Assembly: GCF_000428845.1 (NCBI RefSeq)
Contig: NZ_AUAS01000005.1
Coordinates: forward strand, 124,001 to 188,000
DNA from: Dyadobacter alkalitolerans DSM 23607
Lineage (GTDB): Bacteria; Bacteroidota; Bacteroidia; Cytophagales; Spirosomataceae
DNA length: 64,000 bases
Reading direction: 5' to 3'
Below the pieces are notes generated by a model. The model made no database searches, was not told where the DNA came from, and was given only the letters and a program-made list of their open reading frames with translations. The position numbers and the translations under genes are program-made. Positions 5,297-14,127 of this stretch are shown here, piece after piece (position 1 is the stretch's first letter; the number at the start of each line of letters is the position of its first letter).

Positions 5297-5327
5297 TTTA
5301 ACTATTTTTGAAAAACGTTAAACAAAA
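5292..5327. promoter_or_regulatory. Inverted-repeat operator overlapping the -7 element and MerR start codon
   Basis: TTTTGTTTAAC (5292-5302) and GTTAAACAAAA (5317-5327) are perfect 11-bp arms 14 bp apart. The left arm overlaps the -7 element and the right arm reaches the A of the MerR start codon. Such a site fits an autorepressing MerR/CarH-type protein binding as a dimer or tetramer. No assignment of this exact sequence to a known operator was possible from memory. Confidence 0.6.
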
Positions 5328-6244
5328 TGTCGTCATATTCTATCAAAGACCTCGAACGGATCAGCAACATGAAAGCGCACACCATTCGCATGTGGGAGCA
5401 GCGTTATGGCTTGCTCGAACCCGACAGGACGGATACCAATATCCGGTCCTATAATGATGACCAGGTTAAGAAGCTGCTGAATGTCTGCACGTTGCTGGAC
5501 AGGGGAATGAAAATTTCGAAGATCGGCAAGCTTTCAAAATCTGAAATGGCGAGTGAGATTGAGAAGGTCATTCACGATTCTTTTCAGGGCGATGTGCATG
5601 TGGAAGCGATCATTAACCAGGCACTCATCGGCATCACAACTTTTAATGTTCCGCTTTTTGACGAGATCTTTTCAAATGCTGTAAAAAGGTTTGGTCTGAA
5701 AAAGACCTATATAAAGATCCTGTATCCGCTGCTCGTCCGGACGGGCTTAATGTGGGTAAAGGACGATCTGCTTCCTTCGCAGGAACACTTTTTATCCAAC
5801 CTTATCAGACAAAAACTTTTTGCGGCCATAGACGCGTTGCCCATGGCCGAGCATGCGGACCAGAAATGGATCCTGTTTTTAAATGAAGAAGAAGATCATG
5901 AGATAGGCCTGCTTTTTGCCTATTACATGATCAGGCAGATGGGAAAGGAAGTGGTTTATCTGGGCGCTCGGGTTCCTTTCAGAGATCTTTCACCGGTTAT
6001 TTCAGGCTGCAAGCCAACGCACGCATATTCTTTTTTTGTTCGCAATCAATTTGATGATCAGATAGAAACACTCCTGGGGAATCTCACAACTGAGTTTCCG
6101 CAAATAAATGTCTGCGTCTCCGGAGGCAGTGAAAAATTAAAGAAAATTGCCTCTAAAAAAGGAGTTATCTTGATAGAAACAATTGAAAATCTGACTGATA
6201 TTCTTATCTCTCCCAATGCACAACGGACGCCTACCCAAATCTGA
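5327..6244 (+). CDS. MerR-family regulator with B12-binding domain, CarH/LitR type
   Basis: A 305-residue protein. Residues 4-72 are a MerR winged helix (SIKDLERISNMKAHTIRMWE then QRYGLL). Residues ~90-165 match the methionine-synthase-like cap, and ~180-290 a cobalamin-binding Rossmann fold. W143, E153 and H154 form the Wx9EH motif, and E189-H191-G194 the E/DxHxxG motif; in CarH and LitR these bind adenosylcobalamin. These proteins are light sensors: they repress carotenoid genes in the dark and let go when light breaks the Co-C bond. The gene is first in a five-gene crt operon and overlaps crtI by 29 bp. It probably represses its own promoter through the inverted repeat at 5292-5327. B12 dependence follows from motifs, not from experiment. 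Confidence 0.85.
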   Translation: MSSYSIKDLERISNMKAHTIRMWEQRYGLLEPDRTDTNIRSYNDDQVKKLLNVCTLLDRGMKISKIGKLSKSEMASEIEKVIHDSFQGDVHVEAIINQALIGITTFNVPLFDEIFSNAVKRFGLKKTYIKILYPLLVRTGLMWVKDDLLPSQEHFLSNLIRQKLFAAIDALPMAEHADQKWILFLNEEEDHEIGLLFAYYMIRQMGKEVVYLGARVPFRDLSPVISGCKPTHAYSFFVRNQFDDQIETLLGNLTTEFPQINVCVSGGSEKLKKIASKKGVILIETIENLTDILISPNAQRTPTQI

Positions 6245-9662: not shown

Positions 9663-10384
9663 ATTTCCTATATCTGCTCGTCGATCTTGGTGCCATTGCT
9701 GTTCCGTTGCTGTTTTCTTTTCATCCTAAAATTCAGCTGTATAAAAGATGGCATTTGCTTTGGCCGGCGATTATTCTTTCATTGATTCCTTTCGTGATAT
9801 GGGACAGCTATTTTACAACAATCGCCGTGTGGGGATTTACACCGAAATATCTCGTAGGCACTTACCTGTTTGGGCTTCCTATTGAAGAAATCCTGTTTTT
9901 CATCTGCATTCCTTACGCATGCCTTTTCACTTATTATTGCTTCCGGATCTATTTCGGAACTGATTATAAGCTTAAAAACGAGAATTTAATTACGGCCATC
10001 TTCCTGTGTTTCACATTGGCCATGGGCGTAACTTTTTACGATCGTTACTATACATCCTGGACCGCAGTTGGGCTGGTGGCGTTTCTATTATTTCTGAAAT
10101 TTATTGTCAAACCGCGCTGGCTGAGCCTGTTCTATTTCTCGCACATGTTCCTGCTGATCCCTTTCTTCATCGTAAACGGGATTCTAACAGGATCAGGACT
10201 GGACGAGCCGGTTGTTTGGTATAATAATGCGGAAAATATGGGTATCCGGATATTTACGATCCCTTTTGAGGACATCTTTTATGGCATGTTAATGTTGCTT
10301 CTGAACACGTTCCTATTCGAATATCTGCTTTCCAAATACCCCGTTCCAGAGAAGAAAAACTTAGAAACGGTCTCCGTGGGTTAA
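9659..10384 (+). CDS. Lycopene beta-cyclase, membrane CrtYcd type
   Basis: A 241-residue integral membrane protein with about six to seven hydrophobic segments. It has the two conserved acidic pairs of the bacterial/fungal CrtYc-CrtYd cyclase family: LPIEEILFF around residue 80 and IPFEDIFYGM around 205. The two half-domains are fused in one chain, as is usual in Bacteroidota. It cyclises both ends of lycopene to beta-carotene. The start chosen is the ATG that overlaps the crtZ stop; a longer frame from 9596 would lie inside crtZ. The 3' end overlaps the convergent flavoprotein gene by 24 bp. Confidence 0.87.
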   Translation: MNFLYLLVDLGAIAVPLLFSFHPKIQLYKRWHLLWPAIILSLIPFVIWDSYFTTIAVWGFTPKYLVGTYLFGLPIEEILFFICIPYACLFTYYCFRIYFGTDYKLKNENLITAIFLCFTLAMGVTFYDRYYTSWTAVGLVAFLLFLKFIVKPRWLSLFYFSHMFLLIPFFIVNGILTGSGLDEPVVWYNNAENMGIRIFTIPFEDIFYGMLMLLLNTFLFEYLLSKYPVPEKKNLETVSVG

Positions 10385-11497
10385 GGACACAAGCTTGTTC
10401 AAAACGCCCGGGAAATTGTTTAAAGCTCTCAGGGCCAGATCGGTTGTAGTCCTTTTCCCGAACAATCCCTGCAAATAATAACCGGCTGTAATTCTGCGTC
10501 CAAATGCGTGGTCCCATGCTTTTTTGTAGTTAGCCGAGACGCTGTCAATACTTTGCTTTTTCTCAAAATACAGGATCAGTTCAGTGGCCAGGATTTTGGA
10601 AGCGCGCATACCCATGCTCATGCCGTTGCCGCAGAGCGGCGTGATAGAACCCGCCGCGTCACCAAGGAGGAAGACGCCGTCTGTTTGTGTCTGTTTCCTG
10701 GAAAAATGAATGTTGCTGATCACTAACGGATGTTTGTTAACAAATTCAGCCTGGGTAAAATATGCTTTGAGAAAAGAATTTTTGTGCAAAACGTTGGCCT
10801 CCATTTCCTGAATGTCCTTGCCATTTTCCTGCAAGTTTCGGGAGGTGGTCAGATAGCACAGGCAATGCAAGTCCTGATCCACTTTTGAAACCCCGCAATA
10901 GCCGTCTTTAAAATTGTGCAGTTCAATGCGGTCAGGTGCCAGATCGGTTTTAATGTGGTATTTCACACCGATATAATTGTTAATCTCCTGCCCGGCATCC
11001 GTTGCGTTGCGCGCCAGGAACTGCGGGGTATATTTTCCATAACTGCCGCACAGCACGCCAATATTGAAATTCCCATTGGAAGATTTAACTACAAAACCTT
11101 CATTACCAATCCTTTCCAGTCCATTTACCTTACAATGTTCAAGAACAGCGACGCCTTTTGCGGCAGCAATGCTTGCAAGTGCGTGGTCAAGGCTAAATCT
11201 GCTGATTCCGAACCCTCCCATTTGCAAGGTATGTTCAAGCATAAATCCCTTTTCTGAACTGATTCCGAGCTTGTTAATGATGGGTAAATTGAGTTCATCC
11301 AGATTCAACCCCAGGCTTTTGATAAAATCCCAGCTCTCCATGGAAATGTACTCCCCGCAAACCTTATGAAAAGGATATTGATTTTTTTCAAACAAAACCA
11401 CCGAAACACCCCTGTCCGCAAGCTGGATAGCCAGGCAAAGGCCGGCTAATCCGCCGCCAATAATGCCGCAATCGTAGGTTTTAGCTTGCGTTTCCAT
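10361..11497 (-). CDS. FAD-dependent monooxygenase/reductase of the quinone operon
   Basis: A 378-residue flavoprotein of the NAD(P)/FAD-dependent oxidoreductase (PHBH/geranylgeranyl reductase-like) group. The N-terminal CGIIGGGLAGLCLAIQLADR is the dinucleotide-binding motif, KVCGEYIS is the typical second motif, and GDAAGSITPLCGNGMSMG is the C-terminal FAD motif. It is last in an operon with a UbiA/type III PKS fusion and a methyltransferase. In the Streptomyces srsABC set, a flavoprotein hydroxylates methylated alkylresorcinols, leading to quinones; the same role is inferred here. A reductase of isoprenoid chains is the alternative. The ATG at 11497 is preferred over a TTG six bases upstream and overlaps the methyltransferase end by 17 bp. 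Confidence 0.75.
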   Translation of the reverse strand: METQAKTYDCGIIGGGLAGLCLAIQLADRGVSVVLFEKNQYPFHKVCGEYISMESWDFIKSLGLNLDELNLPIINKLGISSEKGFMLEHTLQMGGFGISRFSLDHALASIAAAKGVAVLEHCKVNGLERIGNEGFVVKSSNGNFNIGVLCGSYGKYTPQFLARNATDAGQEINNYIGVKYHIKTDLAPDRIELHNFKDGYCGVSKVDQDLHCLCYLTTSRNLQENGKDIQEMEANVLHKNSFLKAYFTQAEFVNKHPLVISNIHFSRKQTQTDGVFLLGDAAGSITPLCGNGMSMGMRASKILATELILYFEKKQSIDSVSANYKKAWDHAFGRRITAGYYLQGLFGKRTTTDLALRALNNFPGVLNKLVSLTHGDRF

Positions 11498-12176
11498 AAA
11501 CAATCACTTCATGTCGGAATGCCCATTTGTTTCGAACAGAATATTTGACGGCTCCGGCTTTGTTCAGGATTGCCAACCATTCTGCCCTCTTAAACCCCCG
11601 CAAAACCGACAGCGGTGCATCGTTTTTGACCAAATAAGATTTAGAAAACAGTTGCGTAAGCCATTTAATGGAGTAGTAAGCCAGAGGATTTCTTTCCAGA
11701 TCATTAATAACCAAAACCGCCTTGCTAGCCAATGCAAACCGCACAAGATCAATGAGTTGTTCTTCTGTTAGATGATGGCAAAAGAGACAAGCATGGATAA
11801 TGTCGACCTGTTTTAAATGGCTGAAAATATGCCGGTAATCGTCACAAATCAATTTGACCGGCGCTGTTTTCAGATTTTCCTCTGCATAGGCAATGCAAAC
11901 GGGCTTAATGTCAACGCCATATAAATCCAGCGCATAGCCCTCATTTTTGTTCCAATTGTCAATGCGCTTTAATGTGTCGCCGCCGCCGCATCCGATATCA
12001 ACGAGAATATGAGATTTTCCCGGCTTAATGACCTTTTTTAGCGCGTTAAAGGAAATGTTGTATCCACCCAGCCAATGATTAATGAAGTCAAGTTCCCTTA
12101 AATTCTGGAACAAGTCGGCCGATGGGATATCCTCCTGATCAAGCAGCTCCTTATCCTGGCTGCGGTGTTTAAACAT
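11481..12176 (-). CDS. Class I SAM-dependent methyltransferase of the quinone operon
   Basis: A 231-residue methyltransferase. The SAM-binding motif I is HILVDIGCGGGDTLKRI near residues 56-72, and an acidic end of beta-2 (YGVDIKPVC) follows. It probably methylates the aromatic product of the upstream polyketide synthase, as SrsB does in Streptomyces, but C- or O-methylation cannot be told apart. The ATG at 12176 overlaps the last 8 bp of the synthase gene (ATGTTTAA), which indicates translational coupling. A longer in-frame start at 12197 would overlap the synthase further and adds a cysteine-rich leader that looks spurious. Confidence 0.8.
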   Translation of the reverse strand: MFKHRSQDKELLDQEDIPSADLFQNLRELDFINHWLGGYNISFNALKKVIKPGKSHILVDIGCGGGDTLKRIDNWNKNEGYALDLYGVDIKPVCIAYAEENLKTAPVKLICDDYRHIFSHLKQVDIIHACLFCHHLTEEQLIDLVRFALASKAVLVINDLERNPLAYYSIKWLTQLFSKSYLVKNDAPLSVLRGFKRAEWLAILNKAGAVKYSVRNKWAFRHEVIVYGNAS

Positions 12177-14127
12177 AACGCAGCTGCATCGTTTCAATGC
12201 TTACTCCTGGCCCGAATGCCGCCGCAAAAATTCTGTTGCCTATATTTTCCGGCTTAGCCTTTTCAAGGACTTGCTTCAATACAAATAAGACCGTAGGAGA
12301 TGACATATTTCCGAAATTTCTGAGCACATCGTAAGTGGCTGCCAGACAGCCCTTGTCCAGCTCCAAAGCAGCGACAAAATCATCCACAATGCGCTTTCCA
12401 CCCGGATGAACAGCCCAATGTTTAAATGCATCCGGCGCAAGCCCGATCTTTTCCATCATCGGCTTTATGTTTTTCCGGATCAGGTCAGGCACGTAAGAAG
12501 TCAAGTTCATAATAAAGCCTGTTTCCGACAACTGCCAGGCCATATCGGCATACCCATTATGCAGTATCAAGGAATTGAATGCATCGATCTCAACGTGATG
12601 CGCATAATCCGATCCCGCCTCGGCAGTAACCAAAACCGCTGCCGCACCGTCTCCGAAGATCAGGTTGGACAGCAGGTAATCATCATTATATCGCTTCTGA
12701 AAATGTATTGTGCAAAGCTCGGTGCAGACGATCAGCACTTTGGCACCCGGCTGGCTTCTGCAAATGGCATCTGCGTTTTTGAGCGCAATAATAGCGGCAT
12801 TGCATCCCATAAAATTTACGCTGCTGCGCTGTATGGCAGGATTCAGATCCAGGTCCCGCATCAGCTCCACTTCAAGGCCGGGCGCAAACAGGCCTGTGCA
12901 AGTCACTGTTATCAAGTGAGTTAATTTGCGTTTGATCTCAGTAAACCCCTTCATTTTCTCGACAGCACTTATGGAAAGTTTTGTGGCATGCTGCTGATAA
13001 AGCTGCATACGCTTGGTCAATGTCGGTTCCGGCAGTAATGTGGCTGTTTTGTTAAAAAACTGATAATCTTCCGGCGCTTTATCAAAATCGGCAATCACAG
13101 AATACCGGTTTGCTATGCCAGTTTTCCCCGCTACTACCTTGATCTTTCTCTTATTGGTAATGTCTTCTGTCGAATTCATGTAAAATGAAGTCAACGTTTC
13201 CTGCGAGTAACAATGTTCGGGAACGGCTGTCTCAATAGCAGATATATAACTCAAAGGGATTCTGTTAATTACAATTAAAATAATGAAACAACTGTTCATG
13301 CAGATGGCTGCTATCCAGTTCATCCGCATGGTATTCCTGAAATTCGCCTCACTCCTATCCTTCAAAACCAGGTAAAACCAATAGCCGAAATAAAGGACGA
13401 TCGGCAGGAAGAACACCTGAATAATATAAAAAACCATTCCAAGGCCTTTCGATGTAAAGTACAAATAATAAAATACATTGCACAGCAGAAACATCGCCGC
13501 CGTAAACAGAAATGTGCCCCTGTAACCCAGCTTATAGCTTAATGTTACGACGCCATCTTTCAGGTCCTGCTGGTGCTGATAAACCTGCGTAAGCGGATAA
13601 ACGCCGGCAATTTGAAAAGAACAGGCCAATAGCACATAAATATGCTCTCTACTCAACATCAGCGCACTTTCTGAAACGCCCGCAATGGACATATAGTAGG
13701 TAAACGCACCCTGGAAAATTACAACAGTCAGAAACCCGACAACCGGATATTTTTTCAGCCTGATCTGCCGTGAACTATATGCCCGCGACGCCGCAATGTA
13801 AAGTACCAGGCAAAAAGCGAACAATGTATTTACGAAAAGGAGCGCTAAAACGATCGCGGTAAAATCCAGAAACATGGTGAGGTAAAAAAGTGCGACCGTA
13901 GGCATAGGAGGCTTTTCGAGCCCGCCAACGCTCCCTTCGTCCCTATCCACATAACTGTTGTAACCATTACTAGCCGGGTAAATCAGCAGATGAATGATCA
14001 AAAAAGCGAAGAGTGCATGATGATGCACAACCGTATCTGCCTGACTGTAAGCAAACAGAAACAACGGCATCAGGAAAAAAGAAAAAGGAATGCGCAGAAG
14101 TTTAATTGTATTTCCATCTATGCCCAT
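12169..14127 (-). CDS. UbiA prenyltransferase-like / type III polyketide synthase fusion
   Basis: One uninterrupted 652-residue frame holds two enzymes. Residues 1-290 form a polytopic membrane domain like UbiA prenyltransferases. Acidic motifs are degenerate but placed as expected: NSYVDRDE (57-64) and DLKDGVVTL (188-196). Residues ~292-652 are a chalcone-synthase-like type III polyketide synthase with the full catalytic triad: C442 in FMGCNAA, H574 in WAVHPGG and N607 in FGNMSS. Such synthases make alkylresorcinols or alkylpyrones from fatty acyl starters. The downstream methyltransferase and flavoprotein fit conversion of the ring to a quinone, which the UbiA part might prenylate or anchor. 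At the junction a TTG (13252-13254) followed by SYISAI could be the old start of the synthase. Product unknown. Confidence 0.85.
   Translation of the reverse strand: MGIDGNTIKLLRIPFSFFLMPLFLFAYSQADTVVHHHALFAFLIIHLLIYPASNGYNSYVDRDEGSVGGLEKPPMPTVALFYLTMFLDFTAIVLALLFVNTLFAFCLVLYIAASRAYSSRQIRLKKYPVVGFLTVVIFQGAFTYYMSIAGVSESALMLSREHIYVLLACSFQIAGVYPLTQVYQHQQDLKDGVVTLSYKLGYRGTFLFTAAMFLLCNVFYYLYFTSKGLGMVFYIIQVFFLPIVLYFGYWFYLVLKDRSEANFRNTMRMNWIAAICMNSCFIILIVINRIPLSYISAIETAVPEHCYSQETLTSFYMNSTEDITNKRKIKVVAGKTGIANRYSVIADFDKAPEDYQFFNKTATLLPEPTLTKRMQLYQQHATKLSISAVEKMKGFTEIKRKLTHLITVTCTGLFAPGLEVELMRDLDLNPAIQRSSVNFMGCNAAIIALKNADAICRSQPGAKVLIVCTELCTIHFQKRYNDDYLLSNLIFGDGAAAVLVTAEAGSDYAHHVEIDAFNSLILHNGYADMAWQLSETGFIMNLTSYVPDLIRKNIKPMMEKIGLAPDAFKHWAVHPGGKRIVDDFVAALELDKGCLAATYDVLRNFGNMSSPTVLFVLKQVLEKAKPENIGNRIFAAAFGPGVSIETMQLRYV

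Follow-up and report, generated by a model that had tools for sequence, protein, structure and literature searches.

A single open reading frame in the genome of Dyadobacter alkalitolerans DSM 23607 joins a UbiA-type prenyltransferase to a type III polyketide synthase (PKS), and it raises the question whether the two enzymes are made and used as one chain or as two proteins. The window analyzed here is a stretch of 64,000 nucleotides (contig NZ_AUAS01000005.1, positions 124,001 to 188,000 of the forward strand). The frame has 652 codons, runs from 14127 down to 12169 on the minus strand and is open throughout, in agreement with the preliminary description, which did not give the strand. Its parts are the following.

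13264..14127, minus strand: UbiA-type prenyltransferase domain, residues 1-288, with nine predicted membrane helices
13252..13263, minus strand: joint RIPL, residues 289-292, linking helix 9 to the first strand of the PKS
13249..13254, minus strand: TTG AGT at codons 292-293, former start and second codon of the PKS, identical in 32/32 fused copies
12169..13254, minus strand: type III polyketide synthase, residues 292-652, with the triad C442/H574/N607

Both halves are readily recognized by family profiles. Pfam UbiA matches residues 19-268 with 61.5 bits, compared to a curated cut-off of 34.2, and the two PKS profiles, Chal_sti_synt_N and Chal_sti_synt_C, match residues 295-503 (100.9 bits) and 521-651 (79 bits). 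The predicted model of the PKS part has the ketosynthase fold and matches the solved structure 7d41_B with a TM-score, by target, of 0.88. Its triad, described previously as intact, aligns with those of solved type III PKSs and is invariant in all 32 distinct fused copies. Residue C472 aligns with C205 of PKS18, which we take to be a residue lining the long acyl tunnel; this correspondence fits a fatty acyl starter and is no proof of one. Elsewhere in the genome there are five further UbiA-family matches, making six with the fused gene; for the N-terminal family of type III PKSs the fused gene is the sole match.

The UbiA-like acidic motifs reported for the membrane domain agree only in part with the canonical forms. 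The first Asp-rich motif is present as N57-x3-D61, in the form NSxxDxD, and the second reads QxxxD (Q184, D188) instead of DxxxD; the consensus forms in the family are NDxxDxxxD and DxxxD (PMC4106721). QxxxD is invariant in 29/29 aligned relatives, and by this alignment it is a family trait rather than a peculiarity of one copy; the NSxxDxD form of the first motif is likewise conserved in the subfamily.

The fused frame is widespread in the genus. Among 48 Dyadobacter genomes, 32 carry it, 13 have UbiA and PKS as neighboring, overlapping genes, and three have no close copy (in G001 and G007 the sole PKS is a remote one, and G025 has no match). Five of the fused genomes are assembled as one contig (G005, G017, G034, G112 and G119). 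All named close relatives (65-90% identity) belong to Dyadobacter, and 10 of their 31 loci are fused (L031-L040); D. psychrophilus and D. beijingensis have the fused form and D. koreensis the split one. These counts answer a doubt raised with the first description, that close relatives might all be split near residue 290 and the present copy be a sequencing error or a lost stop. The 13 two-gene genomes speak for such an error, but a frame common to 32 genomes, five of them in one contig, rules it out for practical purposes.

No further whole-length open frame was present among the matches listed, either in the family (222 genomes, 174 of them outside the genus) or in a sample of 390 genomes from the order; these lists stop among the weak matches, too low for a fusion to be expected. 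The pathway itself is common in the order, with 304 of these 390 genomes matching one or both domains at E <= 1e-60. Several candidates for additional fusions were rejected. In G164, which has a long open PKS frame, about 100 bases separate the end of UbiA from the PKS; in G471 and G410, which also have long open PKS frames, UbiA was not found in the 9 kb examined; and in G345, G289, G372 and G412 the two genes share a frame, but a stop separates them.

The split copies show how the two genes could have merged. In all 13 split Dyadobacter copies the PKS starts with TTG, overlapped by the UbiA stop TGA (TTGA), and the fused copies are about one base longer before the TTG. Outside the genus the stop/start overlaps vary, with TTGA in L053, GTGA in L048 and L105, ATGA in L055, L056 and L058, and an eight-base UbiA/PKS overlap in L050-L052, L054 and L060; in other loci the genes are separated. 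A tree was calculated for 54 of 70 distinct rows, namely those >55% identical in UbiA together with five outgroup rows. In this tree 30 fused copies group in one clade (support 97/93) and the other two, L021/L040, in a pair (80/82). The best tree needs two changes, one for the clade and one for the pair, and a single fused clade, which would require one event, is compatible with the data (AU p = 0.319). Two residues of the joint appear to be kept at the amino-acid level: P291 is found in 32/32 fused copies with a free third base (A in 16, T in 13, C in 3), and residue 289 is R or K, encoded by four codons, in 30/30 copies of the main clade. Such conservation is a hint of selection acting on the fused chain as such.

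The strongest constraint at the joint is on the codons of the old PKS start. The 32 distinct fused copies share 37 invariant Leu columns and 18 invariant Ser columns, and TTG292 and AGT293 are the only ones in their respective sets to use a single codon. TTG292 shows no codon changes on the tree, compared to 4-18 (mean, 11.8) in the other 36 Leu columns, and AGT293 shows none, compared to 2-15 (mean, 9.7) in the other 17 Ser columns. The rank of each codon alone gives p = 1/37 and 1/18, whereas a Poisson model gives 7e-6 for Leu and 6e-5 for Ser, and a negative binomial 1.7e-4 for Ser. Codons 292-293 do not sit in a mutational cold spot, since the flanking codons P291 and Y294 have undergone five and six synonymous changes. 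With M and W excluded, 9 of 285 invariant columns lack any change (29, 184, 230, 233, 280, 292, 293, 651 and 652). Codons 651-652 overlap the ATG of the next gene, a methyltransferase, and thus serve as an internal positive control. Columns 29, 184, 230, 233 and 280 have no explanation in this analysis, and they weigh against reading 292-293 as a start. The UbiA part also has very few synonymous changes over codons 230, 233 and 277-281 (GGA230, TTT233 and TGT280 among them), likewise without explanation.

The surroundings of TTG292 are mixed in what they say about a start. The mRNA windows around it are on average less structured than 97.6% of the codon windows of the same gene, partly because the membrane-helix codons are A+T-rich (A+T percentile, 97.8). 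Weak structure fits a start in this phylum, which lacks Shine-Dalgarno sequences (PMC6847099). In Flavobacterium johnsoniae an adenine at -3 is a positive, Kozak-like start preference (PMC6847099); the base at -3 of TTG292 is C in 32/32 fused copies, and the absence of A counts against a start. Taken at the level of codons, TTG292 is conserved beyond the need for its amino acid, as would be expected of an internal in-frame start. Such a constraint points to selection on the bases and is not proof that ribosomes start there.

A second line of evidence concerns the side of the membrane on which the PKS would lie. Both predicted models, of the fused protein and of the UbiA part, show nine membrane helices, of which the last ends at residues 288-289. 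In the fused model a helix at 263-288 is followed by a PKS strand at 293-301, leaving a joint of about four residues; the pTM of this model is only 0.67, too low to fix the arrangement of the domains. The UbiA model superposes on AfUbiA across residues 4-291, the whole length of the domain. This match rests on a predicted model, since a search of PDB sequences with the UbiA subfamily profile gave no matches at E 0.1. In AfUbiA the termini are reported to lie on opposite sides of the membrane, with the N terminus probably cytoplasmic and the C terminus probably extracellular, which agrees with the orientation measured for E. coli UbiA (PMC4106721). The number of helices predicted for members of the family is eight or nine (PMC4106721), so membership alone does not fix the topology of the fused protein. 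K and R are concentrated in the UbiA loops on the motif side, which is predicted to be cytoplasmic. Malonyl-CoA and acyl-CoA are cytosolic. By homology and prediction, then, the C terminus after helix 9 is probably extracellular, on the side opposite the motif loops and the CoA substrates. Nine helices together with the AfUbiA homology would place a read-through PKS there too, provided that helix 9 spans the membrane.

The explanation that we favor, and consider probable, is that two coupled genes were merged by a one-base event and that PKS translation still starts within the fused frame, at the retained UUG. In the split state, ribosomes ending UbiA at the TTGA overlap could restart on the PKS, and a one-base change just before this overlap would bring both genes into one frame. 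With the old UUG kept at the DNA level, PKS translation would most likely begin there and yield a free cytosolic PKS of 361 residues; conservation of the old start codon in every fused copy suggests that this free PKS is still made. The full-length UbiA-PKS chain is probably made as well, and it could be a working enzyme, a tolerated by-product or a tether for PKS dimers.

The fusion had been interpreted at the outset as a single chain that channels a polyketide ring to the prenyltransferase, and as one bifunctional enzyme of this kind, with a UbiA-tethered PKS handing over its product, it would account for a frame held open in 32 genomes and for the apparent amino-acid selection on P291 and R/K289. 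A positive residue after helix 9 would also favor a cytosolic C terminus. The main argument against channeling is the outside-facing C terminus, which follows from homology to AfUbiA, with all nine helices present and K and R on the motif side. The joint is also short, at about four residues, the relatives work as two proteins, and the frozen start codon would be left without explanation. We consider a bifunctional enzyme unlikely on these grounds, though the conservation of the joint residues keeps the channeling view alive to some degree. The same conservation, together with that of TTG AGT, suggests selection on bases and joint residues alike, which is what would be expected if the gene had a purposeful dual output, with full-length chains and free PKS forming mixed dimers and some of the PKS thereby anchored at the prenyltransferase. 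Other prokaryotes are reported to make a long and a short form of a protein by means of an internal in-frame start (PMC6168691, PMC11899642). The outside-facing C terminus applies equally to this arrangement, the dimers are hypothetical, and the fused model has the low pTM given above; we rate such a purposeful output as rather improbable. We also consider unlikely a fuller version, a two-product gene in which free PKS comes from the frozen UUG, the joint (R/K289, P291) is tuned to keep the PKS of the UbiA-PKS chain cytosolic, and some of the PKS is held next to the prenyltransferase through mixed dimers. If true, a two-product gene of this kind would be a natural snapshot of a bifunctional enzyme evolving without giving up its separate parts.

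The retained bases allow one other mechanism, a +1 slip of the ribosome at the proline codon that precedes TTG. Translation of UbiA would then end at the preserved UGA (CCN T TGA), and the PKS would restart as before. The sequence CCN TTGA in 32/32 fused copies does keep the old UGA in the +1 frame, but the varying third base of the proline codon leaves no fixed slippery site, and we regard slippage as very improbable.

The fused gene is followed on the same strand by two further genes.

11481..12176, minus strand: methyltransferase (Methyltransf_25); PRK06202-like at 129 bits, short of the 243-bit cut-off of that profile
10361..11497, minus strand: FAD-dependent oxidoreductase of the geranylgeranyl reductase / UbiH-like superfamily, fourth gene of the operon

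The likely ATG of the methyltransferase overlaps the last PKS codons and stop (12169-12176, ATG TTT AA), and the methyltransferase and flavoprotein genes overlap by about 17 bases (11481-11497). Since the other joints of the operon overlap too, the whole operon may be translationally coupled. The two enzymes of the fusion share this operon recurrently: the order UbiA-PKS-methyltransferase-flavoprotein on one strand is found in 21 of the 35 loci outside the genus that span at least 6 kb, which is not a natural frequency because many of these loci were picked for UbiA adjoining PKS. The exceptions include loci from metagenome-assembled genomes (L055-L058) that have UbiA and PKS only, with no methyltransferase or flavoprotein nearby (L055 ends soon after the PKS), loci in which UbiA lies on the opposite strand (L084, L108 and L109) or after the flavoprotein (L096), and several with no UbiA in the stretch.

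By analogy to known gene sets, the operon most likely makes a prenylated, methylated and oxidized membrane lipid of the alkylresorcinol type. It brings a type III PKS together with prenyltransferase, methyltransferase and oxidase genes, as do Agq-like clusters. In the Agq pathway of Actinoplanes missouriensis, which makes alkyl-O-dihydrogeranyl-methoxyhydroquinones, the alkylresorcinols formed by the type III PKS AgqA are then prenylated and hydroxylated (PMC10896814). Unlike the Bacteroidota operon, Agq is actinobacterial, and the likeness is one of gene set. We know of no PKS-prenyltransferase fusion in an Agq cluster. The losA locus of Micromonospora endolithica likewise has genes for a UbiA-family prenyltransferase and a methyltransferase near a type III PKS (PMC7587189), but as separate genes with an acyl-CoA dehydrogenase gene between. 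The hidABC-like operons of cyanobacteria and planctomycetes, which encode alkylresorcinol synthases, combine a type III PKS with a methyltransferase and an FAD oxidoreductase, as here (PMC10896814), and one cyanobacterial cluster of this type also encodes a prenyltransferase (PMC8086630); they differ in gene order, and the term "UbiA" is absent from the main text of both articles. A further counterpart is the operon of other Bacteroidota, which has homologous genes in the same order and on the same strand but encodes two proteins, with a stop between. Covalent fusion of a type III PKS to another enzyme is known from the Steely proteins of Dictyostelium (PMC9489281), which differ in being eukaryotic and in having a fatty acid synthase, not a prenyltransferase, as the partner. 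The earlier statement that no described enzyme of this layout was known agrees with our search, which found in the open-access literature neither a UbiA-type III PKS fusion of this kind nor a paper on the product of this pathway.

A domain fusion is routinely taken as evidence that two proteins act in a single chain. In this case the conserved bases suggest that the cell continues to produce the second protein separately, and in the fused product the PKS may end up on the wrong side of the membrane. Because fused and split Dyadobacter forms lie about one base apart at the joint, and some are named isolates, the effect of fusion on product, topology and coupling is directly testable.

The operon is convergent with a set of carotenoid genes encoding a MerR-type regulator, a desaturase-like protein of the Amino_oxidase family, a squalene/phytoene synthase, an IPP isomerase and a lycopene cyclase, along with an open reading frame that has no Pfam or NCBIfam match and is hydroxylase-like in appearance; CrtI and CrtZ are our reading of the names. 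The regulator heads the carotenoid genes (5327-6244, plus strand) and matches B12-binding_2 with 20.9 bits, below the cut-off of 23; we read it as resembling carotenoid regulators of the light or cobalamin type. In two Dyadobacter genomes without the operon, G001 (L094:4190-5931) and G007 (L095:3751-5489), a remote PKS about 28% identical lies beside a remote methyltransferase about 30% identical, and by sequence comparison this is another type III PKS locus.
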